A stretch of 64,000 nt of DNA from Candidatus Hydrogenedentes bacterium ADurb.Bin170 (GTDB lineage: Bacteria > Hydrogenedentota > Hydrogenedentia > Hydrogenedentales > CAITNO01). How positions within the stretch are numbered: the first letter of the stretch is position 1; each line of letters starts with the position of its first letter. Under the pieces are notes generated by a model, which saw nothing but the letters and a program-made list of their open reading frames with translations, was not told the DNA's origin and searched no databases. The stretch covers positions 1-64,000 of the forward strand of contig MWCY01000013.1 of NCBI GenBank assembly GCA_002070275.1, in the 5' to 3' direction. Below, piece by piece: positions 12,373-61,537 of this stretch. A program made the position numbers and the translations under genes.

Positions 12373-12666
12373 TCTCTATCTCCGTCTAATTTATACAATA
12401 CAGGAAAGGTTAAGCCGGGGGAAGGCGGTGAACCTGCCCGGCGATCCCGTTTCTTTACTCAGGAACAAATCCGAATCCAAAGAATTCTGAGTACAGTATA
12501 CTTTATTCCTGTCATCAAGTGCACAATGTTCAAAGGTGATTTTTCACACTTAAACCTGAGCATTGGAAAACGAGGAGCAATCCGAAGTAAGCGCATTGGC
12601 TTGATATGTTCAGGCACGACCTTTATAATCGAAAAAAAAGTAAAGTACTCAAAGGAATATTTTAAG
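12373..12666. other. Divergent control region between epimerase and rmlA
   Basis: These 294 bp separate two divergently transcribed sugar-nucleotide genes. A well-formed promoter reading right lies at 12601-12629. A frame extending rmlA upstream to 12526 exists, but it runs through this promoter and lacks family similarity, so it is treated as non-coding. Confidence 0.6.
12601..12629 (+). promoter_or_regulatory. Sigma-70-type promoter for rmlA-rmlB
   Basis: TTGATA at 12601-12606 and TATAAT at 12624-12629 are separated by 17 bp, a near-consensus arrangement. It lies 37 bp before the rmlA ATG at 12667. Unlike three other promoters in this window it has a good -35 box and no TG extension. Confidence 0.75.
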
Positions 12667-13566
12667 ATGAAAGGTATCGTACTGGCAGGTGGCGCCGGAA
12701 CCCGGCTTCACCCGATTACTGTGGCAGTCAGTAAACAGTTGCTCCCTGTTTACGACAAACCAATGATTTACTATCCATTAAGCATGCTCTTTTTGGCGGG
12801 CATCCGTGACATCCTGATTATTTCTACGCCTCACGATCTTCCGCTCTTCAAGAAGCTTTTGGGCGACGGTTCTCAATTCGGTATACAGTTGTCTTATGCC
12901 GAACAGCCTCAACCGCATGGCCTGGCTCATGCGTTTATTATCGGTGAAGAGTTTTGCAGCGGTGAACCTGTGGCTTTGGTCCTTGGCGACAATGTTTTTT
13001 ATGGAAACAACATGTCTGCTATCCTGCAAAAAGCGGCAAAAATTCAGGAGGGCGCATTAATCTTTGCCTATTATGTGAGCGACCCGGAGCGCTATGGCGT
13101 TGTAGAATTTGATACTTCAAACAAAGCAGTCAGCCTTGAGGAAAAACCGGAGCACCCGAAAAGTAATTTTGCCATCCCCGGACTGTACTTTTACGGTCCG
13201 GATGTTGTGTCACTGGCGAAAAATCTGAAACCCGGCAAGCGGGGCGAACTCGAAATTACCGATTTAAACCGCATTTATCTGGAACAGCAGCGGCTGCAGG
13301 TATCTGTTTTCGGGCGTGGCGTTGCCTGGCTCGATACCGGCACCAACAGGAGTCTTCTTGATGCCACGATGTTTGTGCAGGCTATCGAAGAAAGACAAGG
13401 CTTAAAGATTGCCTGCCTGGAAGAGATTGCCTTTAAAAATGGATGGATTGATCTGAAAGCGGTGGAAAAATCTGCCAAAAAAATGGGAAGCAGCGCCTAT
13501 GGAGATTACCTGCGTTTTCTTGTCAAACGCCAAAAACAAAAACTAAGCCAAAATGCGCCTTTATAA
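12667..13566 (+). CDS. rfbA: Glucose-1-phosphate thymidylyltransferase RmlA
   Basis: RmlA joins glucose 1-phosphate to dTTP giving dTDP-glucose, the entry to dTDP-deoxysugars. The 299-residue protein has the nucleotidyltransferase loop [13 protein letters not shown] near residue 6 and the metal/nucleotide motif [15 protein letters not shown] and the EKP-type sugar-binding block ([12 protein letters not shown]) follow. The C-terminal part has WLDTGT. The start is the ATG at 12667, with AAAGGA upstream and a promoter ending 37 bp before it. It is followed 61 bp later by rmlB. Neither rmlC nor rmlD is found nearby, so L-rhamnose need not be the end product. Confidence 0.95.
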
Positions 13567-13627
13567 AATCGGCTAAAGCCGCAGTGTCGATGCGCCTTAG
13601 TTCCGAGTGCTGCACAGGAGAAAATCT

Positions 13628-14647
13628 ATGCAAAAAATTCTCGTCACCGGCGGTGCCGGTTTTATCGGATCCTGCTTTGTCCGAACCCAATTACGCAACT
13701 ACCCTGATCAGCATGTTGTTGTACTGGACAAACTGACCTATTCCGGAAATCTGGACAACCTTAAAGGGCTTGATGAAACACGCATTTCCTTCATCCGGGG
13801 TGACGTGAATAATCCGGAGCATGTCCGCCATGCATTGGAAGGCTGTGACGGCGCGGTACATTTTGCCGCGGAAAGCCATGTGGATCGAAGTTTGAGCGGC
13901 GCATCGGATTTCATTGCAACGAATGTAGGAGGGGTCAATACGCTTCTGTCACAGGCACGTGCAATGAATCTCGAACGGATTTTGCTTGTCTCTACGGATG
14001 AAGTGTACGGCAGCGTTACGGATGGCTCCAGCAAAGAAGATTCCCCGATCCTTCCGCGAAATCCCTATTCTGCAAGCAAAGCCTCCGGAGAACTCATCGG
14101 GCTTTCCTATTTTGAATCCTTTTGCATGCCGGTGATCATAACCCGCGGCTCCAATACTTATGGTCCATACCAGTACCCGGAAAAAGTGCTCCCTCTTTTC
14201 ATCAGCAACGCTATAGACAATGAGCCCCTTCCGCTGTATGGTGATGGAAGGAACGTGCGGGACTGGCTTTTTGTGGAGGATCATTGTGCCGGCATCGACT
14301 GCGCTTTCCGAAAAGGAACGCCGGGAGAAGCTTATAACATTGCAGGAGAAAATGAACGGGAAAATATTACACTGACCAGAAAAGTGCTCTCTTTATTGAA
14401 CCGCCCGGATACATTAATCCGGTATATAGAAGATCGGACCGGGCATGACAGGCGTTATTCCATAGACAGCACAAAATTAAAAGCGCTCGGCTGGGAGCCG
14501 AAAATGAATTTTGACGAAGGTATTGCCTTCACCGTCAAGTGGTATCAGGAAAATGAATGGTGGTGGCGCAAAATCAAGAGCGGGGAATTCAAAGCTTATT
14601 ATGAAGAGCATTACAGGGAACGACTGGACAAGAGTCAGGGAATCTGA
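13628..14647 (+). CDS. rfbB: dTDP-glucose 4,6-dehydratase RmlB
   Basis: RmlB converts dTDP-glucose to dTDP-4-keto-6-deoxyglucose. The 339-residue enzyme has NAD-binding TGGAGFIG (7-14), the dehydratase-specific catalytic TDE (123-125) and YSASK (Y147, K151). GSNTYGPYQYPEKV and RNVRDWLFVEDH (substrate-binding blocks) are also typical. The ATG at 13628 has an AGGAGAAAA ribosome binding site; a longer frame from 13607 is unlikely. It forms an operon with rmlA and ends 12 bp from a convergent gene. Its product is the substrate expected by the RffA-type aminotransferase at 31959. Confidence 0.95.
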   Translation: MQKILVTGGAGFIGSCFVRTQLRNYPDQHVVVLDKLTYSGNLDNLKGLDETRISFIRGDVNNPEHVRHALEGCDGAVHFAAESHVDRSLSGASDFIATNVGGVNTLLSQARAMNLERILLVSTDEVYGSVTDGSSKEDSPILPRNPYSASKASGELIGLSYFESFCMPVIITRGSNTYGPYQYPEKVLPLFISNAIDNEPLPLYGDGRNVRDWLFVEDHCAGIDCAFRKGTPGEAYNIAGENERENITLTRKVLSLLNRPDTLIRYIEDRTGHDRRYSIDSTKLKALGWEPKMNFDEGIAFTVKWYQENEWWWRKIKSGEFKAYYEEHYRERLDKSQGI

Positions 14648-20109: not shown

Positions 20110-21411
20110 TCAGGTGTCTAAAAAAACAGCTGTTGCATCAGGCTCATAAATGCCGTAGCGCGGCCGATCCGAAAGAATAGAAAAATACCAGGCATTTTCA
20201 ACGTAATCCATGTAGGTGCGTCTGCCTTCATGGGTATAGGCAATGGCAAGTACCAGCGAATAATCTCCCGGTGCAATCTGCAGAGGAAAGGTAAATCGCA
20301 CTTTGATTTTACTTCCTGTATCCGGCGGATCTGTGAAAATACCGAGCCGGTCCGTGCTGATAGAGATGATATCAAGACCCTGCCGGTTTTTTACAGCAAA
20401 AGCCATGGAAAAAAACGCATCCGGAAGTTCATCGATTACTTCAGCCTCTATATTGAGCTGGAGGGTGACGCCGAATTCGTAGACCTTTGACATCTTCCCG
20501 CTGTCATCATGAAGTGAAAAAGCGGTCACCTTCGCCTCGCCGCTGCCCCATCTTCGCAGTGTTTCCGTTCGGGATGCTGTCTCCAGGTTTATTACCGGAA
20601 AATCCGGGGATGGCCCTGCCTCGCGAATGTTCTGTTCCGGGTCTGCCTTCTCTTTTTGCTTTTGTACTGCTGTTCCGAAAAGCACTTCACTATACCGTCC
20701 GGTTACCTCACGTGTGTCACCGTCCATTTTAATCCGGCCCTGATCGAGCCAGACCACCCGGGAACAGAAAGAGCGCAGGGTCTGTAAACTGTGGCTGACC
20801 AGCAGGATCGTTGTTTTCTGCTCGATCATTTCGCGCATGCGCTGCATGCATTTCATCTGGAAGGCACCGTCACCGACAGAAAGAGCCTCATCGATGATCA
20901 GTATTTCCGGATCGATAAAAGCCTGCACCGCAAAAGCCAGGCGCATTTTCATGCCGCTGGAATAGGTTTTAACAGGCTGCTCCAGAAAATTTCCGATGTC
21001 GGCGAAGGCAACAATATCATCATATTTGGCGGCTATTTCCTTTTCGCTCATACCGAGGATGGCAGCATTGAGGAGCACATTCTCATGGCCTGTAAATTCA
21101 GGATTAAAACCGCTGCCCAGTTCCAGCAGCGCCGTAATTCTTCCTGAGGTTTGGCAGTTTCCGGAGGTGGCGGAAAGAGTGCCCGCTATAATCTGCAGGA
21201 GGGTGCTTTTCCCGGCACCGTTTCTGCCGATAATACCGACGCTTTCTCCGCGTCCCACTTGAAAACTGATATCGTCGAGTGCTTTAAATTCACGAAAAAA
21301 ACGACGTCGGTAACCGTAGATCATCTGGAGCAGCCGGTGATGGGGCGCCTCATAAATGTGATACACCTTGCTCACATTCTGCAGATTCAGGGCACAGGGA
21401 TCAGAGGACAT
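20110..21411 (-). CDS. wzt: O-antigen/polysaccharide ABC transporter ATP-binding protein Wzt
   Basis: This 433-residue cytoplasmic ATPase powers export of a lipid-linked polysaccharide. Walker A is GRNGAGKST (62-70), the ABC signature is the variant YSSGM (150-154), and Walker B is ILIIDE (170-175). About 180 further residues form a Wzt C-terminal carbohydrate-binding domain with a beta-sandwich pattern, which in known systems recognises the modified non-reducing end of the finished chain. The ATG at 21411 has GGGA upstream; an in-frame TTG at 21417 is less likely. It overlaps the wzm 3' end by 11 nt. The methyltransferase fusion downstream could supply the terminal cap read by this domain. 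Confidence 0.92.
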   Translation of the reverse strand: MSSDPCALNLQNVSKVYHIYEAPHHRLLQMIYGYRRRFFREFKALDDISFQVGRGESVGIIGRNGAGKSTLLQIIAGTLSATSGNCQTSGRITALLELGSGFNPEFTGHENVLLNAAILGMSEKEIAAKYDDIVAFADIGNFLEQPVKTYSSGMKMRLAFAVQAFIDPEILIIDEALSVGDGAFQMKCMQRMREMIEQKTTILLVSHSLQTLRSFCSRVVWLDQGRIKMDGDTREVTGRYSEVLFGTAVQKQKEKADPEQNIREAGPSPDFPVINLETASRTETLRRWGSGEAKVTAFSLHDDSGKMSKVYEFGVTLQLNIEAEVIDELPDAFFSMAFAVKNRQGLDIISISTDRLGIFTDPPDTGSKIKVRFTFPLQIAPGDYSLVLAIAYTHEGRRTYMDYVENAWYFSILSDRPRYGIYEPDATAVFLDT

Positions 21412-22201
21412 CTGCAAATCCCTTTTTTGTTCTCATAAACCAAAGATAGCCCAGCTGAAAAACTGCCAGCGAAAACAGAGAGATCCCCGCAAGAACATAC
21501 CAGTCAGGCCATTGATTATAGATCAGGATCCGGCGCGTCTGGTCAACAAAATGGGCAAGAGGATTGCAAAGGAGCAGGTAGTTCCACGGATGGGGAATGC
21601 GGTCTGTATCGTAAAAGATCGGGGTTAAAAAAAGCAGCATGCGCAATACGATCGTAATAAAATGGCTTAAGTCCCGGATAAAAACACCCAGGGATGCGCA
21701 GAACCAGCTGATTCCGATGGTCAAAAAACTCAAAGGAATAAGAATGGCAGGAAGCAGCAGAATTTTCAGCGAAAGACCACCCATAAAAAGCCAGGTGCCC
21801 GCCACTACCATGAGAAACCACACAAGATTGGGCAGGAGAAAACTGATGTGCCCCGCAAAAGGAAGAATTTCCAGCGGAAAAACGACTTTCTTGACATAGT
21901 TGGGATTGTTGCTGACCGCCTGAATGGAGGCATTGACCGATTCAGAAAAAATCTGATAAATCGTTAAGCCGCTCAGCAGAACGATGGCAAAAGCCATTTT
22001 AGAATCACCGACGCCGTGGCCCCAGCGCGCCTGAAAAACAACACTGAACATAAAAGTATAGATGCCCAGCATGCAAAGGGGAGTAATTACTGTCCATAAC
22101 AGACCGAAAAGACTTCCTTTATAGCGTTGAGTCAACCCGCGGAGGGCAAAACGCCAAAGAAGAAGACGGTGATTTCGGATCAGGGTTACGGGCGTATCCA
22201 T
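21401..22201 (-). CDS. wzm: O-antigen/polysaccharide ABC transporter permease Wzm
   Basis: This is a 266-residue inner-membrane protein of the ABC-2 type, with about six transmembrane segments. It pairs with Wzt to move undecaprenyl-linked polysaccharide outward. Family-like features include the N-terminal amphipathic LLLWRFALRGLTQRYKGSLFGLLW and the later RDLSHFITIVLRMLLFLTPIFY block. The start is the ATG at 22201 (MDTPVTL) with AGAGGTGG upstream; a longer frame from 22384 would add an unsupported Cys-rich segment that lies inside the neighbouring gene. It overlaps the upstream secreted-protein gene by 16 nt and wzt by 11 nt, which indicates a tightly coupled operon. Confidence 0.9.
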   Translation of the reverse strand: MDTPVTLIRNHRLLLWRFALRGLTQRYKGSLFGLLWTVITPLCMLGIYTFMFSVVFQARWGHGVGDSKMAFAIVLLSGLTIYQIFSESVNASIQAVSNNPNYVKKVVFPLEILPFAGHISFLLPNLVWFLMVVAGTWLFMGGLSLKILLLPAILIPLSFLTIGISWFCASLGVFIRDLSHFITIVLRMLLFLTPIFYDTDRIPHPWNYLLLCNPLAHFVDQTRRILIYNQWPDWYVLAGISLFSLAVFQLGYLWFMRTKKGFADVL

Positions 22202-23097: not shown

Positions 23098-25344
23098 ATG
23101 AAAATTTCCTGCTTTTGCCGCAAACACTTTCTGAAAAATCGTCTGTTTATCGTCTGTGTGTGCAGTTTGCTTTTACTGATTTCGGGGTTTATACGAACTG
23201 CATCTGCTGCCCCTCTTTCCTTTCACCCTGCCGATACGAATGAGGATAAAAGGATCACAGAAGGAGAAGCTATGGATTATGTGGAGGGCTGGCAGCAGAG
23301 AGACCTCCCTCTTGCTTTTGCCATGCGTGCCCTCTTCCTGTGGCAATCTGGCGGGCTCTATGCAGTAAACCCTTCCGCAGAGCCTCCGGCGTGCTGGGCT
23401 CCGTTTGAAGAATCCGGTGCCCGGCTGGTTTTATTCGGATCGGAAGAGGAATTCGTGGAATGCGGCGGTTCCTATACGGATCCGGGCGCGGACGGTCAGG
23501 ATGAAGACGGCAGTCCGCTTGTTGTTGCATCGGTTATTACAAAAGACGGAGTTCCTGTCGAATCCATAGACAACAATACGGGCACTCTGGAAAGTGAATT
23601 CAGGATCACGTACAGCACGGAAACAGCATCAGGAGTCAATCTCTCTGTCGTACGCCGCATTTATGTGCAGGATACCCGCCCCCCTGTCATTGAGCCTGCC
23701 ATGCTGCAAATGGATCCGGTTGCACTTATGCCCTACGGTTACAGAAATTTTGAGGCGGATTGGACTTATTACCCTCGCGTATTTCATGTCCATATTCTTG
23801 ACTGCAATGCGGACTGGAGCATGATTGATTCGGGTACAGCGCTCGATGCGTGCGGTTCGGAAGGACCGACAGATTACTGGGACAGCGTTGAAAAGACCGT
23901 TCGTCGGCTGAAGCCCGATTACAGCCTTGAGTATGACGAATTCGGCAATGAGATCATTGTGCCCCTTGATCAATTTACACAAATACCTGGTATATACCGC
24001 ATCGATTATACAGTTCAGGACAGTGCCGGCAACGAAGGCCGCTATGTCACCAATAACTTTTTGCGGTATATAAAAGTTATGGATACGACCCGGGTTCCTC
24101 TTGTCGTTGACGCCGGTCTGACACGCGAAGAAGCCGAGGCGCGTATTCTTGCAGCACATCTGGCACCAGCAGTCATTGAACAGCACGATGATAATATTTT
24201 TGCAGGCCTGGTTATTTCTCAGAGTCCGGCGCCGGATATTTTTGCACCCTGCAATTCCGAAGTACAGATCATAGTTTCGCTCGGACCATGCCTGCTTCCG
24301 ACAGTGACTGGCATGTCTCTTGAAGATGCTCAGGAAGCTCTGCGCACCGCCGGATATATTTCCGGTTCTGTCACTGCTGTTCCCTCCGAAGCAGAAGCAG
24401 GCACAGTGCTTTTTATTGAAACAGACAACTTTCTCTGCGGCGGGGTTATTCATCTGGTTGTTTCTGAAGGGCCCTGTTTCATGCCTGATGTCATAGGATT
24501 GCCAATGAGTGAAGCAATCGCACAGATTACAGGAGCGGGCTTCCCAGCGCCTGAAATACAATATGACTGGAACGTGGTGCCCGTTGATACTGTTTATGAT
24601 CAATTCCCTGATCCCGGTAAGCGCACCTGTGATTTTCAATCTGTACTTAAAGTTTCTCTGTTTTTAAAGCCCACGTATATAGATCCGGACGCATCCCTAT
24701 TTAATAGCTTTGAATGTGGAGTCTACTGGAATGATCCGGAGGCATCAGTCCGTGTCGGGGAGGAGTTTGACCCCATTGCCTGGATCGGAGCGGCAGAGAT
24801 TGCCTATCAATCCGGAGAAAGCTGGATTCCCGCCGATCCGGAGATCCCTCTGCTCGCCGATCACTCTCCCTATCGTGTCACTTACCGATATGAGTACCGG
24901 AAACCGTATACGGAAGAGCCGGGCGTACTGGAAGGGATTCGTTTTATTGCGGTGAACGACACATTGCCCCCTGTCTTGACAGTTAAAGATAATCCTGATT
25001 ACCTTCTGAACGAAACAATCCCGGTGTATGTGTGTCGTAAAGGTCAGTATCACCACTGGGACGATGTCGCGGCGGCTTATGATATTCGCATCCTTAGCCT
25101 GGAAGATCAGTGCGAGGGCAGCCTTTCGGCAGACAATGTTGTGATTGATATCTATCGTTACTTTCCGGATGAAGTCAATGAAGATGATCCCGGCGAACCT
25201 GTTTTGCGTTCACTAGAAGAAGCGGGCTTAACGGAGACCACCTGGTTGAATACGCCCGGATTTTATGTGGTTAATTATTCCGCTCGCGACCAGGCGTATA
25301 ACATGATATTTTCCGGCAGAGGCGTCGAAGTTCCCGAAGACTAA
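23098..25344 (+). CDS. Secreted multidomain protein with EF-hand, Ig-like and three PASTA repeats
   Basis: This 748-residue exported protein has a signal peptide of about 38 residues ending near ASAAP. A dockerin-like EF-hand follows (DTNEDKRITEGEA), then an Ig-like DUF5011 domain (GGSYTDPGADGQDEDG) and a second beta domain. Three PASTA domains come next, beginning near PLVVDAGLTREEAE, LPTVTGMSLEDAQ and MPDVIGLPMSEAI. Two more Ig-like domains close the protein. PASTA domains usually sit on PknB kinases or penicillin-binding proteins and bind peptidoglycan; here no catalytic domain is attached. A good AAGGAAGG ribosome binding site precedes the ATG. The role is probably cell-wall or surface attachment, which is inference. 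Confidence 0.8.
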   Translation: MKISCFCRKHFLKNRLFIVCVCSLLLLISGFIRTASAAPLSFHPADTNEDKRITEGEAMDYVEGWQQRDLPLAFAMRALFLWQSGGLYAVNPSAEPPACWAPFEESGARLVLFGSEEEFVECGGSYTDPGADGQDEDGSPLVVASVITKDGVPVESIDNNTGTLESEFRITYSTETASGVNLSVVRRIYVQDTRPPVIEPAMLQMDPVALMPYGYRNFEADWTYYPRVFHVHILDCNADWSMIDSGTALDACGSEGPTDYWDSVEKTVRRLKPDYSLEYDEFGNEIIVPLDQFTQIPGIYRIDYTVQDSAGNEGRYVTNNFLRYIKVMDTTRVPLVVDAGLTREEAEARILAAHLAPAVIEQHDDNIFAGLVISQSPAPDIFAPCNSEVQIIVSLGPCLLPTVTGMSLEDAQEALRTAGYISGSVTAVPSEAEAGTVLFIETDNFLCGGVIHLVVSEGPCFMPDVIGLPMSEAIAQITGAGFPAPEIQYDWNVVPVDTVYDQFPDPGKRTCDFQSVLKVSLFLKPTYIDPDASLFNSFECGVYWNDPEASVRVGEEFDPIAWIGAAEIAYQSGESWIPADPEIPLLADHSPYRVTYRYEYRKPYTEEPGVLEGIRFIAVNDTLPPVLTVKDNPDYLLNETIPVYVCRKGQYHHWDDVAAAYDIRILSLEDQCEGSLSADNVVIDIYRYFPDEVNEDDPGEPVLRSLEEAGLTETTWLNTPGFYVVNYSARDQAYNMIFSGRGVEVPED

Positions 25345-25532: not shown

Positions 25533-27359
25533 ATGTCATTGTATTTTATTGGGGCGACTCTTGGGAACGATCCCCATACAGAAGGGCTTTTCAAAGCACA
25601 GCGTATTGCGAACCTGGCATGCATTTCCGGGCATATAACGGCGCCAGCAGACACATTATCTCTTTTGCTGGGTGCTGTTCGGGAATATCGCCCCAGCCAT
25701 ATAGGACTGAGCTACCGGCTTTCACCTGATAAAGCAGAGGCTGTTTTTACCGAATGCATCCATACTCTTGAAGAAAACGGACTCCTCCGACGTGGTGACG
25801 GCACCTGGTGCCGTGTTGCCTTTGCCGCCCTTCCTGAAAGCATCGCCAGACTCCGTGCCCGCAGCAATCAGTTTCCGGTGCCCGTGGAATTCTTTTCGCA
25901 GGAATTGCCGCCTCTTGACAGAGCAGAGCAGGTGCTCGATTATTTTGAGGTTCGTGATTTCCAACGCGACAGAATTCTGGCTCTGTTGAAAGAAGAACTC
26001 TGCCCCCCTGGTATAGAAATGCTGGACCAGATGGCGAAAGAGGTGATTGCAGGCGATAAGTGGCGCTCTGAGCCGGGGCTGCAAAAACCGTCCGCCGAAG
26101 CAGTCAAGGACCTGATTCGACGATTTGAAGAATCAGAACTACCCTGTCTGCGAACCCATTTCGGGGTTCCCGAAGACTCTATTCAGCCGACGGTGGAGGG
26201 GATTGCTGCACTTGCCAATGCCGGTGCTGTAGACGAAATTTCTCTGGGCTCTTCCGATCTTTCGCAGCGTTATTTCGGTGAGCCTGAAGCTTTTAAAGGA
26301 AGAAAAAACGACGGTGGAGTGCCTTATAAAACTGTGGACGACCTCAAGGTACTTTATCAGGCGACCCGTCGTGGCAATTATCCGGGTATAAAGCCCTATG
26401 CTCATGTACGCAATCTCTGCGCTTTTGCCGATGATTGTTTGAAAGTCGGCATGCTGCAAGGCGCTCATCAGGCAGTGCCGCTTTTCTGGTTTAATGAATT
26501 GGACGGGCGTGGTCCGCTTACTCTGGATGAATCACTGGTGGAGCACCAGGAGACGGTGGCACATCTTGCCCGGCGGGGCATCCCCGTTGAGATGAATGAT
26601 CCTAATCATTGGGCATCCCGATGGGCACATGATACAGTGGTTGTTGCTGACTATGGATTGATCACCGCCGTGATGGAACAATGTGGTGTTGCCGATATGA
26701 TTTTTCAGTTTCAGTTGAACAAACCGGCGGAAACCGGTGATTATGCCGATCTTGCCAAAATGGGCGCTGCTTTGGAGCTGGTCGGCAGGCTGAAAGGGAA
26801 TGCCCGTGCCTGGCGTGAAACCAGAGCAGGGATTGAACACTTTTCTCCGGATCCGGCTGAAGCCAAATACCAGCTGGCTCGTACTACATTGCTGCAGATG
26901 ATATTGGAACCGCATATGATCCATCTGGTCAGCTATTGCGAGGCACGTCACGCCGCAACGGTACAGGATATTGTCGAAAGTGCACAAATCGTACGGCATG
27001 CCGCCAGACTCTTCAAAAAACACGCACCCGATTTAATGAAATACCGTAATCAGAATGAAGTAGTGGAAAGAAAGCACTACCTGCTGAAAGAAGCGGAATA
27101 TCTGCTTCATGCGATCGCCCGCCTTCATCCCCGGTATGAGCCCGGATCGCTTCAGAGTATCGCAAGCATGCTTGCTGACCCGTTCATACTGGAAGCAGCG
27201 GTAAAACATCGTTTTATGGCAGCACCCGGTCTGGTACATCCGGATTATCCTTATCCCCGTCTTGTAACACGCCCGTCCCGGCATGGTTTTTTTGATGTAT
27301 ATGAAGAAGAGGGCGTTCAAATACTGAAGGAAGCAGAACGACTGTCTCTTCAGCAATAA
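25533..27359 (+). CDS. Putative cobalamin-binding enzyme (N-terminal B12 domain plus TIM-barrel-like region)
   Basis: This 608-residue protein has no confident family match. Its N terminus reads as a Rossmann-type cobalamin-binding domain. GATLGNDPHTEG contains the DxHxxG motif (D13, H15, G18) whose His ligates cobalt in glutamate mutase and methylmalonyl-CoA mutase, and a later GLSYRLS sits where those enzymes have their SxL motif. The third (GG) motif is not obvious. Residues about 200-450 (THFGVPEDSIQP, DEISLGSSDLSQ, EMNDPNHWASRW) look like an alpha/beta barrel, reminiscent of the GlmE catalytic subunit but not clearly homologous. The start at 25533 (AGAAGG upstream) removes a TTG-initiated extension. 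It is followed 7 bp later by the ligase gene. Possible roles are carbon-skeleton mutase or methyltransferase. Confidence 0.6.
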   Translation: MSLYFIGATLGNDPHTEGLFKAQRIANLACISGHITAPADTLSLLLGAVREYRPSHIGLSYRLSPDKAEAVFTECIHTLEENGLLRRGDGTWCRVAFAALPESIARLRARSNQFPVPVEFFSQELPPLDRAEQVLDYFEVRDFQRDRILALLKEELCPPGIEMLDQMAKEVIAGDKWRSEPGLQKPSAEAVKDLIRRFEESELPCLRTHFGVPEDSIQPTVEGIAALANAGAVDEISLGSSDLSQRYFGEPEAFKGRKNDGGVPYKTVDDLKVLYQATRRGNYPGIKPYAHVRNLCAFADDCLKVGMLQGAHQAVPLFWFNELDGRGPLTLDESLVEHQETVAHLARRGIPVEMNDPNHWASRWAHDTVVVADYGLITAVMEQCGVADMIFQFQLNKPAETGDYADLAKMGAALELVGRLKGNARAWRETRAGIEHFSPDPAEAKYQLARTTLLQMILEPHMIHLVSYCEARHAATVQDIVESAQIVRHAARLFKKHAPDLMKYRNQNEVVERKHYLLKEAEYLLHAIARLHPRYEPGSLQSIASMLADPFILEAAVKHRFMAAPGLVHPDYPYPRLVTRPSRHGFFDVYEEEGVQILKEAERLSLQQ

Positions 27360-27366
27360 GGTCTGT

Positions 27367-28563
27367 ATGAAAAAAACACTTTTTATATTCGGAACCACTT
27401 ATAATCAGATTCCGCTTGTAGAAAAAGCGAAAGCATCAGGTTACATGACGGTCTGCCTCGGAACAGGCGGCGGCGTTTGTGAAAAATATGCCGACAAAGT
27501 ATATCCCATTGATTTTACAGACATAGAGGAAGTGCTGCGCCTGGCAAAAATATACCAGCCTGCAGGGATGGTCACTTGCGGCACCAGCACGGCAATCCAT
27601 GCCATTGCACAATGCAATCATCTGCTTAAATTCAGTGATAAAGTGCCTCCGCTTCAGGTAGTGGAAAATTGCGTATTTAAAAACAGATACCGCGATATCA
27701 TCGGCGAATCTATGGCGCCCGGTTTCTCTGCGTCTGATCCGGAGAAAGCAGTGGAAATGGTGCAGACACTGCGGCTGCCCGTCGTGGTTAAACCTGCCGA
27801 CGGCGGCGGTGGTAAAGGGATCAGCCTTCTGGAAAAAGTGTCGCTCCAACAGATGCAGGATGCTTTTCAGCATGCCCGCAGCTATTCAAAGATGAACACT
27901 GTTGTTGTCGAGGAATTCATAGACGGAACTGTTCTTGGTGTGGAGTCTTTCGTCCATGATGGAAAAATTTTTACTTTGGTAATGCCGGAAAAACTGATAG
28001 ATGAAGAGGTTATGAATTTGACGCGGGGCGTTGTATTTCCGGCAAATTTTTCCGCTGAAATAGCTGATCAGATCCGCCGTGTCAATGAAGCTGCTATCCG
28101 GGCTTTCGGCATAAATTGGGGGGCCGTGCATATTGACATGATTCTTGAGAGAAATGAAGTGCCTCGTATTATCGACGTGGGGCCCCGCCTTGCCGGAGGG
28201 CCTCTCATGGCCGAAATGGTACCCCGTTATTATAACTACGACTTTTATAAAGCTACCATTCAACTCTCTGTGGGAGAGCAGCCTTTGCCCGTTCCGGATC
28301 AGCATGACAATCAGTACTATGCGTCCTACAGTCTGGTGCCTGATAAAGATGGCATTCTTGAATCAGTTGAATATGAGGCAGAAGCCGTCGATGCTTGTCG
28401 GGTTTTCTTTTACAGACAACTGCTTGCCGACGGTTCTTCAGTAAAATCACCGAAAAGCGACGGTGACAGAGTGGTGCTGTTTGCATCTACCGGAGAAAAT
28501 TATCAACAGACGTTGTCGCATGTAATGTCTTTCGCTTCAGGAATTCGGATGAAAATCCGCTGA
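27367..28563 (+). CDS. ATP-grasp carboxylate-amine ligase
   Basis: This 398-residue cytoplasmic enzyme has the ATP-grasp fold: an N-terminal pre-ATP domain, then the nucleotide loop VVVKPADGGGGKGI (139-152) and VVEEFIDG. The metal-binding block HIDMILERNEVPRIIDVGPRLAGG follows. Such enzymes join a carboxylate, activated as acyl phosphate, to an amine, as in amino-acid ligases, PylC or PurK. The substrate cannot be read. The short gap to the upstream cobalamin-type gene and the following opine dehydrogenase gene suggest one pathway on amino acids. AAGG eight bases before the ATG serves as ribosome binding site. Confidence 0.85.
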   Translation: MKKTLFIFGTTYNQIPLVEKAKASGYMTVCLGTGGGVCEKYADKVYPIDFTDIEEVLRLAKIYQPAGMVTCGTSTAIHAIAQCNHLLKFSDKVPPLQVVENCVFKNRYRDIIGESMAPGFSASDPEKAVEMVQTLRLPVVVKPADGGGGKGISLLEKVSLQQMQDAFQHARSYSKMNTVVVEEFIDGTVLGVESFVHDGKIFTLVMPEKLIDEEVMNLTRGVVFPANFSAEIADQIRRVNEAAIRAFGINWGAVHIDMILERNEVPRIIDVGPRLAGGPLMAEMVPRYYNYDFYKATIQLSVGEQPLPVPDQHDNQYYASYSLVPDKDGILESVEYEAEAVDACRVFFYRQLLADGSSVKSPKSDGDRVVLFASTGENYQQTLSHVMSFASGIRMKIR

Positions 28564-28607
28564 CTTGTTTGGTTTGTCCTGCATCCGACAGCATTTGATG
28601 AAGAAAA

Positions 28608-29924
28608 ATGAATTGTAAACCAGGTATATACGGCGTAAGCACCCAGTCCGGGCGTGCTTTTTTCGCCGACTTTCTTTCAAAGGGTCTGCAGAGCTACGGC
28701 TATGCCCGTGCTACGGAACACGGCAGGGCGGCTGTTAGCTGTTTCAATGCCCGGGGCGGTATTTATCTCGAACGCCCTCCCAACAATATCGGTGAGGAGT
28801 CACGCTTTATTCCTCTTGGGATGAGCAGCGTCGGGCACAGCCTTGATGAATTGCTTACCCGATCAGATTTCATTTTTCTGTCTCACCCTTCCCAGCACCT
28901 GGAGGAGAGTGTCTCTCTGCTGAAAGAAGCAGGACTGATGCAGCGGCAGATACCGCTGGTTCTGACGCCGCCCAGAACACTGGCAGCCCCCTATCTTTGG
29001 CGGATTGTGGGTGAGAACTATCCGCTGATCTGTTTTTCCACTTCCCCTTACTCTGCCAAAGCGTTGGAGAACGGCGTTTACATCAAACGGAGAAAACGAA
29101 GCTGGATGGTGTCGCTCGAAGGCGAGGTGAGCGAAGAGCAGAGGGAACAGATTTCGGAGATCTTTCCGCAGGTTCTGTTCAACCGTGTCCCCGCGACAAC
29201 TTCGCTGGGCAATATAGGCGCCGTGTTTCATCCGGGCGGCTATCTTCTGAATTACGATGACATCGAGAAACGGCAACGGCAGGGCGAACCGTATTCTTTT
29301 TATATGGAAGGGATTGCTGCCCGACCGGAAGTAGGAGAATTGCTGGAGGAAATCGATCAGATCAGACTGCGTATCGCCTATAAGTTGAATATGCCTGTCT
29401 TTGGACTTTATGGCAATGACAGGGAAGAGGAATGGCAGGCTATGATGGCTCGCCTGCGTCTGGCGGAGTCACGCACAGAAAAAAGAGACATCCAGACTTT
29501 ACGAAAAATGCGCCATGAGTGCCTTTCCACTATCCACAATGCCATCGTATCAGCCCAGCACTGGTTGGATTACAGTTATGGTGTGGCTCGGATCCCCGGA
29601 GAATCACTCGCTAATGCTGTGAGCAGAACGCCGACCTATCAGAAGCGATCCGTACCTCAGCGACGCTATCTGGATGAAGATATTCCTACTGGTCTCGTTC
29701 CTCTGGAAGCCCTGGCAAAACGTTTTGACATAGATTGTACTGCCATCAGCCGTATTTTGGATTTATATGGTGAAAAAGAAGGCAAGGAGCCCCGTGCATC
29801 CGGACGTAACTTGCAGCCTTTTACGACGGAGTACCTGATCCGTTATTTAAAGGGTTGCCCGGACGAAGAAATGCCGGATGTGTCTATGCCGGACACAAAC
29901 AGCACTATAAGGTCTTATTTATGA
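28608..29924 (+). CDS. Opine/octopine dehydrogenase family protein
   Basis: Enzymes of this family use NAD(P)H to reductively condense an amino acid with a keto acid, or work in reverse. The 438-residue protein has an N-terminal dinucleotide-binding region whose loop (GIYGVSTQSG) departs from the usual GxGxxA. Next comes the family's catalytic region with LGNIGAVFHPGGYLLN (His208) and the helical C-terminal domain. The strongest signature is RRYLDEDIPTGLVPLEALAKRFDI, very close to the octopine dehydrogenase domain pattern. About 70 extra residues follow. The ATG overlaps no neighbour upstream (44-bp gap), and its stop overlaps the next gene as ATGA. It fits a role as the redox step acting after the ATP-grasp ligase or on its substrate. 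Confidence 0.8.
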   Translation: MNCKPGIYGVSTQSGRAFFADFLSKGLQSYGYARATEHGRAAVSCFNARGGIYLERPPNNIGEESRFIPLGMSSVGHSLDELLTRSDFIFLSHPSQHLEESVSLLKEAGLMQRQIPLVLTPPRTLAAPYLWRIVGENYPLICFSTSPYSAKALENGVYIKRRKRSWMVSLEGEVSEEQREQISEIFPQVLFNRVPATTSLGNIGAVFHPGGYLLNYDDIEKRQRQGEPYSFYMEGIAARPEVGELLEEIDQIRLRIAYKLNMPVFGLYGNDREEEWQAMMARLRLAESRTEKRDIQTLRKMRHECLSTIHNAIVSAQHWLDYSYGVARIPGESLANAVSRTPTYQKRSVPQRRYLDEDIPTGLVPLEALAKRFDIDCTAISRILDLYGEKEGKEPRASGRNLQPFTTEYLIRYLKGCPDEEMPDVSMPDTNSTIRSYL

Positions 29925-30862
29925 ATGCAGCGTCTACTCCTCTCTATTCAGTAGTTATTCCTGTCTATCGCTCTGAACCCACGCTAGGGCTGCTCTGCAG
30001 ACGTGTCTTTCAGGTTTTTGAACAGATGTCTTTGGCTGTGGAAATTATACTCATCGACGATTCTTCTCCGGATGCGTCCTGGCAGGTCATGCAGGAATTG
30101 CGTCACAAAGACAACAGGATCAAAATTATTCGCCTGGCACGAAACTTCGGACAGCATAATGCACTCATGTGCGGTTTTGCCCATGCTCAGGGCGAATTTA
30201 TTTTGACCATGGATGATGATTTGCAGCATCCGCCTGAAGAGATTCCTAAACTGATCGATGCCATGCAGAAAGACAGCAATTGCGATGTGGTGATCGGTTC
30301 TTATGTGGCGAAAAAACATTCTTTTATCCGCCGGCTGGGAACCCGTGCCATGCAAGGGTTCAATCGCCTTGCGCTGCACAGCGAGCCCAAACTGGAGCTG
30401 ACGAGTTTTCGGCTGATCCGCCGTTTTATTATTGATGAACTGGTGCGCCTGCAAATGGATAAGCCCAGGGTTGGTCGGCTGCTGGTTGATTTGTCCGCTC
30501 ATATTGTCAATGTACCTGTCGCTCACGAAGAGCGGCGCTACGGTCGCAGTGGTTATTCTTTTTTCAGGCTGGTGCGGGATTTTTTCAACAATATTGTCAG
30601 CACCTCTGCCGCCCCGTTAAAAGTGGTGAGCGTGCTGGGTTTTTTCAGCGCAGCCATGAGTTTTCTATTGGCTTTTTATTATTTGTACCGCTATTTTGCC
30701 ATCGGCATTTCTGTGCCCGGCTGGACTACGCTTATTATGGTCAATCTTTTCCATTTTGGCGTACTCCTTTTTTCCATGGGAGTTATCGGGGAGTATTTGA
30801 TCCGCATTCTTCGGGAAGAGCAGCAGCTGCCGCAGTATTTCATTCGGGATAAAGAGTTGTGA
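29921..30862 (+). CDS. Polyprenyl-phosphate glycosyltransferase (GT2, ArnC/GtrB-like)
   Basis: This 313-residue membrane enzyme would transfer a sugar from a nucleotide donor to undecaprenyl phosphate on the cytoplasmic face. It has the GT2 start YSVVIPVYRSEPTL, a donor-binding IDDSSPD, and the metal-binding DDD in TMDDDLQHPPEE. HEERRYGRSGYS follows, and two C-terminal transmembrane segments are typical of ArnC/GtrB/DPM1-like proteins. The start is the ATG at 29921 that overlaps the opine dehydrogenase stop. With the flippase-like, aminotransferase and GT-C genes downstream it forms a lipid-linked sugar module. Confidence 0.9.
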   Translation: MNAASTPLYSVVIPVYRSEPTLGLLCRRVFQVFEQMSLAVEIILIDDSSPDASWQVMQELRHKDNRIKIIRLARNFGQHNALMCGFAHAQGEFILTMDDDLQHPPEEIPKLIDAMQKDSNCDVVIGSYVAKKHSFIRRLGTRAMQGFNRLALHSEPKLELTSFRLIRRFIIDELVRLQMDKPRVGRLLVDLSAHIVNVPVAHEERRYGRSGYSFFRLVRDFFNNIVSTSAAPLKVVSVLGFFSAAMSFLLAFYYLYRYFAIGISVPGWTTLIMVNLFHFGVLLFSMGVIGEYLIRILREEQQLPQYFIRDKEL

Positions 30863-31875
30863 CGGCAGATCAGAGAAAGAAAATAGTATTCTGGCTTCGG
30901 CTGACTGCATTGCTGCTTTCTATTGCCGTGCTTCTTCGCATGGTGAAGGTGCAGTTGGTGCTGAGCCACATCCGGGATATTCCCTGGTATATCTTTACAG
31001 TTCTGGTTGTTATCGCAATTTTCCGGACCTGGCTCAACGGATTGCGCTGGCAGCTGCTGAATCCCGATGCGAGCCGGCAGCTGACCCGTTGGCAGTACTT
31101 CCGTTTTCTCATGATTGCCCACGCGTTTAATCTGATTATGCCCGGCGCTCTCGGAGGCGACTTTGTAAAGACAGCCATGACCTTGAAGACGGTAAAAAGC
31201 AACCGCGCCAGCAATTTAATTGCCATCGTTGCCGACCGCTATATAGGGCTTTTCTCTATCATCATGCTGGGGTTCATATCTCTCATCTTTGCAACCCGTA
31301 TCCCGGATCGGATGGTTTTTTACCGGTATTTTGCCGTTCTTATGGCTCTTTTTGCCGGACTGAGTCTGATTTCAACACAGCCGTGGCTTTTTGCACTGTT
31401 GGAAAAGATTTTCCTGCGACTGGGAAAAGTAGGATCAGCACTTAATTCGCTGCTGGATACCTGGCGTGGTGCATTGCTTTATTTTCGGAAAAACTATTTT
31501 CGGGTCCTTATGGCTTTTCTGCTGTGTCTCCCCATTCATGGTGTTGTTTTCATCACAAAATACACGGTGGCACGTTATCTCGGCATCTCTGTCTCTTTTT
31601 TTGATATATGCGTTGTGCAGGCGCTTGTATGGGTTATCACGGCTGTTCCCGTCACAATTTCCGGGGCAGGCGTCCGCGAACTTTCGGTTATTTACTTTCT
31701 CTCTTTTTACGGCATCGATGCGGAGTCTGCTGCGGCGCTTTCTGTATATAACTATATTGTTAATGTTATATTGGGATTTATTGGATTTCTGTTTCTTATT
31801 GACTCACGGGGTTTACGCCGGAAAAAGGCAGCAGAAGACACACAGACTAAGGAGCAGATACCAGATGTTTTCTGA
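30859..31875 (+). CDS. UPF0104/AglD-type polytopic membrane protein, possible lipid-sugar flippase
   Basis: This 338-residue integral membrane protein has about eight transmembrane segments and the signatures of the lysylphosphatidylglycerol-synthase transmembrane/UPF0104 family: NLIMPGALGGDFVKT and AVPVTISGAGVRELSVIYFL. Members often neighbour polyprenyl-phosphate glycosyltransferases and are suspected of moving lipid-linked sugars or lipids across the membrane; no such activity can be shown from sequence. It uses a GTG start overlapping the previous stop (GTGA), which indicates translational coupling. A hydrophilic, charged tail ends the protein. Confidence 0.8.
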   Translation: MTADQRKKIVFWLRLTALLLSIAVLLRMVKVQLVLSHIRDIPWYIFTVLVVIAIFRTWLNGLRWQLLNPDASRQLTRWQYFRFLMIAHAFNLIMPGALGGDFVKTAMTLKTVKSNRASNLIAIVADRYIGLFSIIMLGFISLIFATRIPDRMVFYRYFAVLMALFAGLSLISTQPWLFALLEKIFLRLGKVGSALNSLLDTWRGALLYFRKNYFRVLMAFLLCLPIHGVVFITKYTVARYLGISVSFFDICVVQALVWVITAVPVTISGAGVRELSVIYFLSFYGIDAESAAALSVYNYIVNVILGFIGFLFLIDSRGLRRKKAAEDTQTKEQIPDVF

Positions 31876-33159: not shown

Positions 33160-35469
33160 TTGCTGTCTATGAATGCCCTTTTCGCGATTATGCGAAACGA
33201 AATGATCATCGGTTATGGGATGCTCGCTTTTTTCACGTGCCTTTGTTTCGGCTATGCGCTTCTGTATTTTTATAAACATAAAAATGAGATAGGATGGCAG
33301 GAACTTATTCTCTGGTGTCTCTACGGAGGTGTGTTTGTGTGTCTGGTTGTGCCCATGGCAACCCGGCTTGCTTTTACACAGGTATGGGTGCAGTACCTGA
33401 CACAAACCCGCCGATTGACTGAATATTTAATCTTTATTCCGCCCATGATCGTTTTAACTTTGTTCTGGCTCGCCGGTGCCCGGATCCTTGCGCGAAAAAA
33501 TCTTTCTCATTTGTTGTTTCTGCTTCTTTTTTTTCTGCCTGTGTTTTTCCTCTTTCGTTTTCTTTTTCTCTACTTCTTTGATGCAAAGCCCTACTCTGAT
33601 TTTGAAACCTACTGGCTGATGGCACAGGAAAATGTTCAGGCAGGTTCTTTTCTTGTCAAAGAACGCTTGGGTGTTTCGCAGTTCTGGTTGCCCTATTGCC
33701 GCAGGGTCGCCGTAATCTGGACACCGCTCATCTGGTTTTTTGGCGCTGCTCCTGCTGTATATAAGAGTGCCAATGTTGTCATGCAGCTGATGGCCTTCCT
33801 GATGGCGTACAGAATAGCCGTACGCCATTTCGGAAAAACAGCGGCACAGCTTGCCCTGTGGCTGATACTCTTTGTGCCCGAGCTGATCTTCAGCTGTAAT
33901 ATACCCAGCCACGACCTCAACGGCATGTTCCTTCTTTTAGGATATTTTTTTCTGTTGGATGAAGCGTACGCTTTATGGGGGAAAAAAAAGAAGATTCCTG
34001 CCGTTGTTCTTGCATTGTTTTGCGGGATTCTCTGGCTTGCAGTCGATTTGCAGCGAAGCCACGGGCCTTTCATTTTTCTTTGCAGCATTTCTTTTGTCGG
34101 GCTTCATCTGGCATTTCATCTCCCGGATCTTAGAAAACGGGAACTGTGGAAGACGACGCTGCTTCGATATTTATCGCTTTTTCTTCTGATTTTTCTTCTC
34201 CCCTGGGGAAGCAAAACAGTGTCTGAATACTACGTGACGGAGGCTACCGGTTTAAGAGGAAATGCGGCAACAGGCGGACAAAAACATTACCACACTTCCA
34301 TCGATAACTGGAACGGCATGTTTCAATCCCTTACTACTACGAAGAACTATTTTGCCTCGCTCCAAAAGTCCGCGGATCCGCCCCAGTCCAATTTATTCTG
34401 GTCTGAGTATTATCGGGATGTTTTCTTATCCGGTTATCTGCATAATCATGTGCGTTATATCCCTCAATTGATGAATAGGGCAAGCGGTCTGTTATGGCTG
34501 GGTAAAGATGTGGTCTACTATTTTTCCCGGCTGAAGCCGGAGAGCCCGATAGCACCTCACTACAGCTTGACACGGGGCTTTTATTTTCTTAGCGACTGTT
34601 TTATGCTCGTTTTTCTTTTGCTTGGCATCTTTGGTGTCACGAGCGCACTGAAAAACCGAGATTGGAAGATCAATAGCGTACAGCCCCTTCTTTTTTTATC
34701 GGCACTTGTGATCCTGCTGCTCTTCTTTGGAGAAATACAGGCGCGCTATACCTATCCCATATGGATCATTCTGCCTTTATATCTGGGAGTACCCATGAAA
34801 CGCTGGCTGCGCCGTGAAAAAAAAGCATGCCCACAAAAAAGCCATCTTCTTTGGGGAACAACTATTACAACAGGCGGCTTTTTCGCTTTTTTTATGAGCA
34901 CCATGGCTGTTTATGCACTCGCCGGAAATCCGCTGCTGTCCATGCAAAACTGGGAGGTGCAGGCTTCAGAGCGTTTTACACAAGAAGAGTTGTATGCGCC
35001 TTTTATGCAAAGTGATGGTACAGTGCAGATCAAGTTTGAAAACAACTGGAATATGACTCCAGGCCTTGCCTATACCGCCAACAATCTGCGCCTGCAGCTT
35101 CGCTTTCCGGCGCAGCCGGTGCCGGGCATGTATACGAAGGCAGCCAAATCATTTTCTTTAAAACCGGACACTTCTTATATTCTTCAGGGAGTGTTGGAAT
35201 GTGCTTCTCAGGAGAAATTGAAATCGTTGGATGTAGATACCTTTTATGTCACCGTGAGTTGTAACGGCAGCACATTATTTGTCATTGATTACAAAAAGAT
35301 TTTCGGTATTCGCTTTGTCCGTATTCCGGGTATTACGGCAGATGAAAACGGGAAAGCGAAAATAGAATTCAGGATCAGTGCAAAGAAGAGCTGTGCGGAA
35401 AACGACTGGAAAACATTGAGCTCTCTCAGTTTCAGTCATTTTCAGCTGGTACCTGCCGAGGCGATCTGA
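33160..35469 (+). CDS. GT-C-type membrane glycosyltransferase (ArnT/GT39-like)
   Basis: The 769-residue protein has about twelve transmembrane helices and then a C-terminal extracytoplasmic domain of roughly 170 residues (from about 600). The first large loop has FFDAKPYSDFETYWLMAQ, matching the acidic catalytic loop of polyprenyl-phosphate-dependent GT-C enzymes such as ArnT and the PMT family. It probably takes a sugar from a lipid phosphate and transfers it on the outer face of the membrane. It probably starts with TTG at 33160, eight bases after TTGGAG; the ATG at 33169 is the alternative. Only general fold similarity can be claimed. It ends the lipid-linked aminosugar module. Confidence 0.78.
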   Translation: MLSMNALFAIMRNEMIIGYGMLAFFTCLCFGYALLYFYKHKNEIGWQELILWCLYGGVFVCLVVPMATRLAFTQVWVQYLTQTRRLTEYLIFIPPMIVLTLFWLAGARILARKNLSHLLFLLLFFLPVFFLFRFLFLYFFDAKPYSDFETYWLMAQENVQAGSFLVKERLGVSQFWLPYCRRVAVIWTPLIWFFGAAPAVYKSANVVMQLMAFLMAYRIAVRHFGKTAAQLALWLILFVPELIFSCNIPSHDLNGMFLLLGYFFLLDEAYALWGKKKKIPAVVLALFCGILWLAVDLQRSHGPFIFLCSISFVGLHLAFHLPDLRKRELWKTTLLRYLSLFLLIFLLPWGSKTVSEYYVTEATGLRGNAATGGQKHYHTSIDNWNGMFQSLTTTKNYFASLQKSADPPQSNLFWSEYYRDVFLSGYLHNHVRYIPQLMNRASGLLWLGKDVVYYFSRLKPESPIAPHYSLTRGFYFLSDCFMLVFLLLGIFGVTSALKNRDWKINSVQPLLFLSALVILLLFFGEIQARYTYPIWIILPLYLGVPMKRWLRREKKACPQKSHLLWGTTITTGGFFAFFMSTMAVYALAGNPLLSMQNWEVQASERFTQEELYAPFMQSDGTVQIKFENNWNMTPGLAYTANNLRLQLRFPAQPVPGMYTKAAKSFSLKPDTSYILQGVLECASQEKLKSLDVDTFYVTVSCNGSTLFVIDYKKIFGIRFVRIPGITADENGKAKIEFRISAKKSCAENDWKTLSSLSFSHFQLVPAEAI

Positions 35470-61200: not shown

Positions 61201-61537
61201 CAACACTGCCTTTCCCGCCCCCCTGCCACTGTACTCCGGTTTTTGCTGAAAAAGTGTTGTATCCCTTATTCAGAGGGATACGAATCGCTCCCTGAGCATG
61301 TGTGCCGATTCCTTTTTCAAAAACAGTGTCACCAATGCGCAGGGGCTGTTGTGATCCTTCCGCCATCCAGGCGGCAGTGTTAATTCCCGGGTTGCCCCAG
61401 CCCTGTGAAATGGAAATATTGTCCACAAGCTCGGAAAGATCGTCCGAAGGTTTTACTTCGGCAAAGACGGGTACAGCCAGGCACAGCAAAAAAGAAAATG
61501 AGAGCGAAAGCAGAAAATGAAGTAACGAAGAGCGCAT
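58244..61537 (-). CDS. NPCBM / beta-propeller / HzsA-like di-heme cytochrome c protein
   Basis: This 1097-residue exported protein has a signal peptide and then an NPCBM carbohydrate-binding domain (about 35-175; DTVFEKGIGTHAQGAI). A linker and PD40/TolB-like propeller blades follow. An HzsA-related middle region ends in a cytochrome-c part with two heme motifs, CVGCH (near 924) and CLSCH (near 975). Proteins of this type are common in Planctomycetes-related phyla, and the related hydrazine synthase alpha subunit lacks the carbohydrate domain. Nothing here indicates anammox. It may oxidise or bind polysaccharides while passing electrons. The upstream gene overlaps it by one base (TAATG). Confidence 0.8.
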   Translation of the reverse strand: MRSSLLHFLLSLSFSFLLCLAVPVFAEVKPSDDLSELVDNISISQGWGNPGINTAAWMAEGSQQPLRIGDTVFEKGIGTHAQGAIRIPLNKGYNTFSAKTGVQWQGGGKGSVVFKVQVDGKSVYTGKSMSDSDTPAALHLSVQGADELLLLSHDNGDGISCDMANWVDAQLIRDTRVPVIGVPVWKFGSKDASPLAEMEGSFALAGQSGNAQAAFCVPLRCATLFTSPGQDIAVSFPLAGISESFTIEAQLQGVGTAKGIATLSLASGETVRQPLTEDVTTLTVRGNSGTAEESLTLTIQTNCSALVRLKSLTYSCDGIKTPLPFFPPQRLAAGSDAPPAIAMQPLLEQEIIEWDWRMQDGIGAGATRNSYADAIKKALASHEHTPVFHEEDSEYLSRCFQELTGKTPDDAPAWEILWRCLHQKKRDFFLAQMPSGNTPLLFVKHAPGGFSHQLTQYYGRYARPGGGVFVLEAPGASMRVRALAESHFPDGSFMHPEISTDGGRILVAFCATEIGAGGSFDGNPGHFFNLYEISADGAEAKRLTRGNFDDFAPKFLPDGDVIFISTRRGGWHRCGTPGCEVYTLARMQADGQNIQVLSFHETQEWDPVVLHDGRVVYTRWDYVDRHAVHYQQLWVTRPDGTNPAIFYGNNTLNPVGVWETRPVPGSDKVIATAAPHHGMTAGSIILIDTSKGMDDLEPLTRLTPEVPFPESEAVLLPHWRSELRPDPPAVTPEMERWPGQCYKNPWAFSEKLFLAAYSFDPLIGEPKGNFANTFGIYLVDASGNKELLYRDLNISSLSPLSMQPRKNPPVLPSALQPDAAPEGTFYLQDVYESDPRLPEEKITHLRLVQVLPKSTPGANNPTVGAANASPGRQVLGTVPVEEDGSAYFKAPSGIGIAFQALDASGQAVQVMRSLTYLQPGENVSCVGCHETRSSTPPTVSVRSQALRRAPSEITPAPDGSRPLSYPILVQPVLDKHCLSCHDAEATQSELKLTGAPEGRYTQSYNALIPHVSFSYWGRGQFPAGNCEPGTQPGFFGARGSHLTQLLLNGHYDVKLDKDEWERLITWMDANALFYGTFNKKDQARQQMAERIAGPELE

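Follow-up and report, generated by a model that had tools for sequence, protein, structure and literature searches.

A predicted B12-dependent mutase and an opine dehydrogenase with an acidic-substrate signature form a conserved gene pair, found in a surface-glycan context in Hydrogenedentota

Introduction

Proteins that appear to depend on vitamin B12 and are encoded beside opine dehydrogenases (ODHs) have been in the literature since 2009, when a novel B12-dependent family was predicted that always adjoins a PF02317 gene, with D-Ala-D-Ala ligase and AsnB genes nearby (PMC2667541), and when a B12 protein beside an octopine dehydrogenase was noted in H. orenii (Hore_09740/09750; PMC2626281). 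One 2009 paper also reported a distant similarity of the B12 protein to methionine synthase. A search for later functional papers on this family, in a library without most subscription journals, found none. We focus here on a related locus in the first 64,000 nucleotides of contig MWCY01000013.1 (assembly GCA_002070275.1, Candidatus Hydrogenedentes bacterium ADurb.Bin170), the whole stretch of DNA that was analysed and which we call the window. It contains three tightly spaced genes:

25533 to 27359, + strand: gene 1, predicted fused adenosylcobalamin (AdoCbl)-dependent mutase, 608 amino acids counted from the ATG
27367 to 28563, + strand: gene 2, ATP-grasp ligase, L-amino-acid-ligase (LAL)-like, 398 amino acids, Pfam ATP-grasp_3/4
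28608 to 29924, + strand: gene 3, ODH, 438 amino acids, PF02317

The gaps of 7 bp (genes 1 and 2) and 44 bp (genes 2 and 3), and the ATGA coupling to the following gene, are as the original prediction had described them. A TTG upstream at 25515 is a possible alternative start for gene 1, and the stretch ggagag just 5' of the ATG at 25533 is a plausible ribosome-binding site. The original prediction went on to present the three genes as an undescribed association; a B12 protein beside an octopine dehydrogenase is, however, already in both 2009 papers, and the two-enzyme core was predicted there. What is new here is the window subfamily, the fold assignment, the link to acidic specificity and the glycan context. 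Our current understanding is that an unusual acidic amino acid is probably made by the gene set through B12 radical chemistry and an enzyme that forms opines, and that in this organism it apparently decorates a surface sugar.

The 2009 family resembles the locus in its N-terminal B12 domain, its adjacent PF02317 gene and the Ddl or AsnB genes nearby, a match made by description and taxa only. It corresponds to the distant subfamily of our comparison, ~30% identical to the window protein. The close subfamily, that of the window, on the other hand, has an intact DxHxxG motif, a ~60-residue insertion in the mutase, a ~48-residue insertion in the ODH and a Rossmann loop of altered sequence. About six residues of its mutase are switched, and it is found repeatedly in glycan operons that include an LAL-type ATP-grasp. 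In the window, the ODH lies 1.2 kb 3' of the mutase in the same operon. A parallel had also been drawn with pyrrolysine synthesis by PylB, PylC and PylD, in which a radical isomerase, an ATP-grasp ligase and a dehydrogenase likewise follow one another. PylB is a radical S-adenosylmethionine enzyme and PylD is not an ODH, whereas gene 1 has a B12 mutase fold and the ligase lies outside the conserved core. Since that fold is of the glutamate-mutase/aminomutase type, the parallel stands as an analogy and nothing more.

A conserved gene pair

Similarity to gene 1 was the sole criterion for collecting loci, the best 80 of 482 candidate relatives being kept, and the ODH statistics are thus unselected. 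A relative with 75% identity is among the matches. An ODH is present at 22 of the 27 close and 47 of the 57 distant loci (69/84), and at 14 close and 41 distant loci it lies less than 150 bp from the mutase. It is missing despite a 6-kb flank on each side only at two loci (L039 and L067), whose genomes both hold an ODH elsewhere; among 14 genomes checked for an ODH, three metagenome-assembled genomes (MAGs) were without one. In a sample of 68 Hydrogenedentota genomes, the mutase occurs in seven and the ODH in eight, all seven being common to both (Fisher p ~8e-9). Furthermore, the trees of the two proteins are correlated, with r of 0.86 in the close and 0.56 in the distant subfamily (permutation p 0.001 in each). 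The ODH-mutase pair is therefore conserved, operonic and co-evolving across phyla, archaea included.

The genes thus recur in other genomes, as had been anticipated, although not as a triad. Many loci hold just a two-gene ODH-mutase operon, with overlaps of -1 or -4, and the third partners vary, so that the core is the pair. At 16/27 close and 18/57 distant loci an ATP-grasp or AsnB gene is no more than six genes away, and these partners belong to several unrelated classes: ATP-grasps of the LAL type, of a second and unrelated type, of the ATPgrasp_ST family or Ddl-like, or else AsnB. Ddl-like or AsnB genes stand at many distant loci, whereas the window carries another ATP-grasp class. Gene 2 is indeed an ATP-grasp protein (ATP-grasp_3, 3.9e-13), with a LAL_C2 match below the Pfam cut-off and 4dim as its nearest PDB sequence (8e-27). 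No relative of the mutase was found on viral contigs or plasmids, and true MutE was not found in 60 Hydrogenedentota genomes.

Some of the pair's surroundings are worth recording in their own right. In an Aminicenantes MAG (L093:8812-14390), an operon with 1-bp spacing or overlap runs ODH, mutase, TldD/PmbA-type metallopeptidase and a 448-residue gene. At Tissierella-type loci (L060, L066, L085-L088, L102, L103) the pair lies 3' of genes that read as 2-oxoacid:ferredoxin oxidoreductase-like and often 5' of fatty-acid-synthesis-like genes. At L089:11756-13902 it adjoins 2-hydroxyacyl-CoA dehydratase activase-type genes (DUF2229, HGD-D).

Gene 1 as a predicted single-chain radical mutase

The evidence on gene 1 comes from motifs, family profiles and a structural model, which together identify it as a single-chain, AdoCbl-type radical mutase in which a B12 domain is fused to a glutamate-mutase-type barrel. 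Its features are:

Residues ~1-125: N-terminal B12-binding domain, followed by the ~60-residue linker insertion
Residues ~190-608: glutamate-mutase-epsilon-like barrel
25569 to 25586, + strand: DPHTEG, the DxHxxG cobalamin motif, residues 13-18
26940 to 26942, + strand: Glu470, family-invariant, aligned with glutamate mutase Glu330 in a low-confidence profile alignment

First of all, the DxHxxG motif named in the original prediction is present, and DPHTEG is followed by exactly 41 residues and then SYRL (S60); DxHxxG-41-SxL is the signature of base-off cobalamin domains. The D, H and G are kept in all 23 aligned close-subfamily members, while most distant-subfamily members have Cys in place of the Asp (12/15), with the His and Gly invariant. 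Second, the profile search that had been proposed gave a divided answer. The window protein itself has no Pfam (including PF06368) or NCBIfam match, a sequence-only PDB search with it gave no meaningful match, and a seven-row profile gave only weak B12-domain matches; in the aligned set of relatives, on the other hand, 25/38 match the B12-binding family PF02310 and 7/38 match Met_asp_mut_E (PF06368), the latter with two members slightly above the curated cut-off. Third, an AlphaFold model built from a 38-sequence alignment (predicted local distance difference test, pLDDT, 94.1; predicted template-modelling score 0.93) has glutamate mutase epsilon as its best PDB fold (1cb7_B, E 4.6e-11, template-modelling (TM) score 0.52/0.64), followed by lysine 5,6-aminomutase, ornithine 4,5-aminomutase and acyl-CoA mutases, all AdoCbl radical mutases. 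The B12 fold looked for in residues 1-130 is present in this model; with that fold in place and the genes occurring together elsewhere, the original prediction survives at both points where it had laid itself open to refutation. Finally, MutL, of the glutamate-mutase reactivase family, is encoded near the pair at four loci (two Chloroflexota, two Bathyarchaeota), and the source genome encodes a cobalamin adenosyltransferase (PF01923, 9e-31).

That gene 1 might be a corrinoid methyltransferase-like protein and not a radical mutase we consider very unlikely. Its N-terminus is similar in sequence to methyltransferase B12 domains, but the fold of its catalytic domain is that of glutamate mutase and the aminomutases, MetH being a far weaker match, and both the PF06368 matches and the MutL neighbours point the same way; on this evidence the methionine-synthase-like reading was set aside.

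Glutamate mutase (GlmS plus GlmE, EC 5.4.99.1) is thus like gene 1 in the type of its B12 domain, its barrel fold, the PF06368 similarity of some family members and the MutL neighbours at a few loci. Gene 1, on the other hand, is a single chain with ~12% structural identity and an ODH partner, no methylaspartase is seen beside it, and its family apparently does not keep the glutamate-binding arginines, as far as a weak alignment allows. Profile comparison with genuine MutE is indeed weak (hhalign probability 28%, E 6.5e-4), and the mapping of residues onto glutamate mutase is therefore tentative. Glu330, with which Glu470 aligns, is, we take it, the Glu that binds the adenosyl ribose. Invariant residues of the barrel are R207, H209, W319, D324, R326, E353, N355, R363, Q392, N396, K409, R431, H464 and E470. 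About six positions switch between the subfamilies (246 R/E, 287 K/R, 291 H/G, 312 H/W, 394 Q/M and 467 S/mostly G), which suggests that these differ in substrate or stereochemistry.

The acidic-substrate signature of the opine dehydrogenase

Gene 3 belongs to the octopine-dehydrogenase family, as had been stated from the start (PF02317, 5.1e-23; 82 bits against a cut-off of 30). Its two-domain model (pLDDT 92.7) has 1bg6 as best fold (6.4e-17, TM 0.82 on the target), and octopine, yersinopine and pseudopaline dehydrogenases follow. The residues that matter for catalysis and specificity are:

28974 to 28976, + strand: Arg123, equivalent to position 111 of 1bg6, the acidic-amino-acid specificity residue
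29217 to 29219, + strand: Gly204, equivalent to position 198 of 1bg6, the second specificity residue
29229 to 29231, + strand: catalytic His208, equivalent to His202 of 1bg6, in 70/70 linked ODHs
29679 to 29681, + strand: catalytic Asp358, equivalent to Asp297 of 1bg6, in all linked ODHs that include the segment

Sequence and model together thus identify gene 3 as a true opine dehydrogenase of two domains; its His-Asp dyad is intact, and it carries an Arg/Gly pair known from published mutants to select acidic amino acids. In hot-spring ODHs, Arg111 and Gly198 give a preference for Asp/Glu, swapping both swaps specificity with Phe, and positions 154 and 157 are among those listed as making the cleft positive (PMC10787698). 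In our census, which leaves out the Hydrogenedentota ODHs L127 and L130, Arg111 and Gly198 (1bg6 numbering) occur together in 70/70 ODHs at the loci of gene 1 relatives; nine plasmid ODHs with no mutase neighbour have neither residue (0/9) and carry Asn198 in every case. The NADPH marker Arg35 is found in 66/70 linked ODHs, and close-subfamily ODHs carry Arg154 (23/23) and Arg157 (22/23). Gene 3 also has a ~48-residue insertion in the helical domain, common to all close-subfamily members, and its Rossmann loop is GVSTQSG, not GxGxxG. The hot-spring enzymes, whose gene context is absent from PMC10787698, were compared by their published residues; they share R111/G198 and, at positions 34 (N/S) and 36 (T/S/F), the residues of most distant-subfamily ODHs. 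Given the agreement at 34 and 36, these orphan enzymes probably come from an ODH-mutase module.

The original prediction had also likened the locus to opine metallophores such as staphylopine and pseudopaline, in which an ODH likewise makes an N-carboxyalkyl amino acid, and the locus does encode an amide-forming ligase together with its opine dehydrogenase. Those systems, however, are without a B12 enzyme, the scan of flanking genes showed nothing like nicotianamine synthase, the ODH has an acidic-substrate signature and its neighbours are glycan genes. We saw no metallophore evidence, and staphylopine-like biosynthesis, a weak reading already, was set aside as scarcely credible.

As a separate observation, genome G045 has PF02317 stretches on contigs C148 and C247 (L130, L132, L133) besides its mutase-linked ODH; one that was read (C247, L132) has Asn198 and is of the ordinary ODH type.

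The surface-glycan context

The acidic-amino-acid signature and the surface-glycan context both go beyond the original prediction. In the window, the pair and its ATP-grasp ligase are grouped with a glycosyltransferase of family 2 (GT2), a flippase-like protein, WecE and a large membrane protein, with Wzt alongside:

29921 to 30862, + strand: GT2 glycosyltransferase, nearest ArnC/PgfS polyprenyl-phosphate sugar transferases; its ATG overlaps the ODH stop as ATGA
30859 to 31875, + strand: flippase-like membrane protein, LPG_synthase_TM / TIGR00374
31959 to 33101, + strand: WecE, dTDP-4-amino-4,6-dideoxygalactose transaminase, above the curated cut-offs of NF008687 (581/375) and TIGR02379 (534/435)
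33160 to 35469, + strand: large hydrophobic membrane protein with no Pfam match, a possible lipid-linked-sugar glycosyltransferase
12526 to 13566, + strand: RmlA, glucose-1-phosphate thymidylyltransferase, TIGR01207 above cut-off, in a separate operon of the same window
13607 to 14647, + strand: RmlB, dTDP-glucose 4,6-dehydratase, TIGR01181 above cut-off
20110 to 21417, - strand: Wzt, O-antigen ATP-binding cassette exporter ATPase with a C-terminal glycan-binding domain (Wzt_C, 4.5e-22)

RmlA, RmlB and WecE are the complete set for dTDP-4-amino-4,6-dideoxygalactose. The setting recurs in the window subfamily, whose Hydrogenedentota and Bacteroidota members are encoded in surface-glycan operons together with ATP-grasp ligases and sugar transaminases. 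A DegT sugar transaminase is present at 10/27 close loci, each of them also with an ATP-grasp (L015, L033, L034, L037, L038, L047, L049-L051 and L053), RmlA is near the pair at L016 and L051, and at L015 the same operon also ends in a protein 52% identical to the product of 33160 to 35469.

This context bears on the direction of the chemistry. ODHs are reversible and many of the hosts are amino-acid fermenters, and the ODH could therefore oxidize acidic opines to amino acid and pyruvate, with the mutase feeding the amino acid into fermentation; the 2-oxoacid:ferredoxin oxidoreductase-like genes upstream at Tissierella-type loci, and MutL or an amino acid racemase at a few loci, would fit. In the neighbourhoods that were read, however, no methylaspartate ammonia-lyase accompanies the pair, and the window and Bacteroidota copies lie inside glycan biosynthesis operons with ligases, so we judge a catabolic role quite improbable. 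We give about the same small credence to a free anionic stress solute as the product, the glycan association being secondary in the window lineage. Halophilic and alkaliphilic Bacilli (L042, L045, L048) do have standalone ODH-mutase operons, as do thermophiles (PMC2626281), and the ODH is upregulated in an ethanol-adapted Thermoanaerobacter (PMC3751872), but the pair is also carried by gut anaerobes, Tissierella pigra and rumen Alistipes MAGs among them.

Three other genes deserve mention. An alanine dehydrogenase/PNT-family gene in the pair's glycan operon at L051:14163-15140 is a possible second opine maker, its product being, we assume, similar to N5-(carboxyethyl)ornithine synthase. Directly 5' of the window operon, 23098-25344 encodes a surface protein in which PASTA and Ig-like domains are present and an N-terminal stretch, DTNEDKRI, resembles a dockerin in look. 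Further away, an NPCBM-containing protein (58247-61537) strongly matches hydrazine synthase alpha in its middle domain (1.2e-22), probably because the two have a structural domain in common and not because of any hydrazine chemistry.

A proposed function for the operon

We propose a biosynthetic route in which a two-enzyme opine/mutase module makes an acid that, in this organism, is amide-linked to a dTDP-Fuc4N-type sugar. In an NADPH-dependent step, the ODH would condense an acidic L-amino acid (glutamate, aspartate or 3-methylaspartate) with pyruvate, and the mutase would rearrange the carbon skeleton through a 5'-deoxyadenosyl radical, either before the ODH step (Glu to 3-methyl-Asp) or after it (on the N-carboxyethyl opine), to give a skeleton-rearranged N-(1-carboxyethyl) amino acid. 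At the window locus, RmlA, RmlB and WecE would supply dTDP-4-amino-4,6-dideoxygalactose, the ATP-grasp ligase would activate a carboxylate of the opine acid and amide-link it to the 4-amino group of the dTDP-Fuc4N-type sugar, and the ArnC-like transferase and flippase-like protein would load the sugar, once acylated, onto a polyprenyl carrier, destined for a surface glycan. For the standalone two-gene operons elsewhere, the product would be the acid itself. Substrate, order of steps, product and glycan attachment are all inferred, and taken as a whole we hold this explanation tentatively, at slightly less than an even chance. A more specific form, in which the AdoCbl enzyme is an opine mutase acting on the N-(1-carboxyethyl) acidic amino acid and the window subfamily acylates the 4-amino sugars of surface glycans with the product, is unlikely in our estimate.

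Several points weigh against this proposal. First, the literature searched shows no assay of any enzyme of the mutase family. Second, domain placement differs between the gene 1 model and 1cb7_B (root-mean-square deviation 12.7 over 498 columns), a large deviation that probably arises because the domains sit differently. Third, in the low-confidence alignment, R66 of glutamate mutase falls on the invariant His209, R100 has no Arg counterpart and only R149 meets a basic residue, K/R287. These three arginines presumably form the claw that holds glutamate in glutamate mutase; with two of them lacking an Arg counterpart, the substrate of gene 1 may not be free glutamate. Fourth, the GxGxxG/A cofactor loop is degenerate in 23/23 close-subfamily ODHs and intact in the distant ones, and cofactor binding in the close subfamily is therefore a prediction. 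Finally, the window ATP-grasp is only 18-25% identical to the ATP-grasps at Bacteroidota loci, and the amide step on dTDP-Fuc4N is read from gene context. We found no precedent for B12-dependent glycan decoration in the literature searched.

For the B12-dependent family predicted in 2009, the glutamate-mutase fold, the MutL neighbours and a partner ODH that carries the Asp/Glu-selecting residue pair now converge on a concrete and cheap test. If true, the proposal would lengthen the short list of carbon-skeleton rearrangements that depend on AdoCbl and would give the orphan acidic opine dehydrogenases a physiological role, and through the window subfamily cell-surface chemistry would be linked to vitamin B12.

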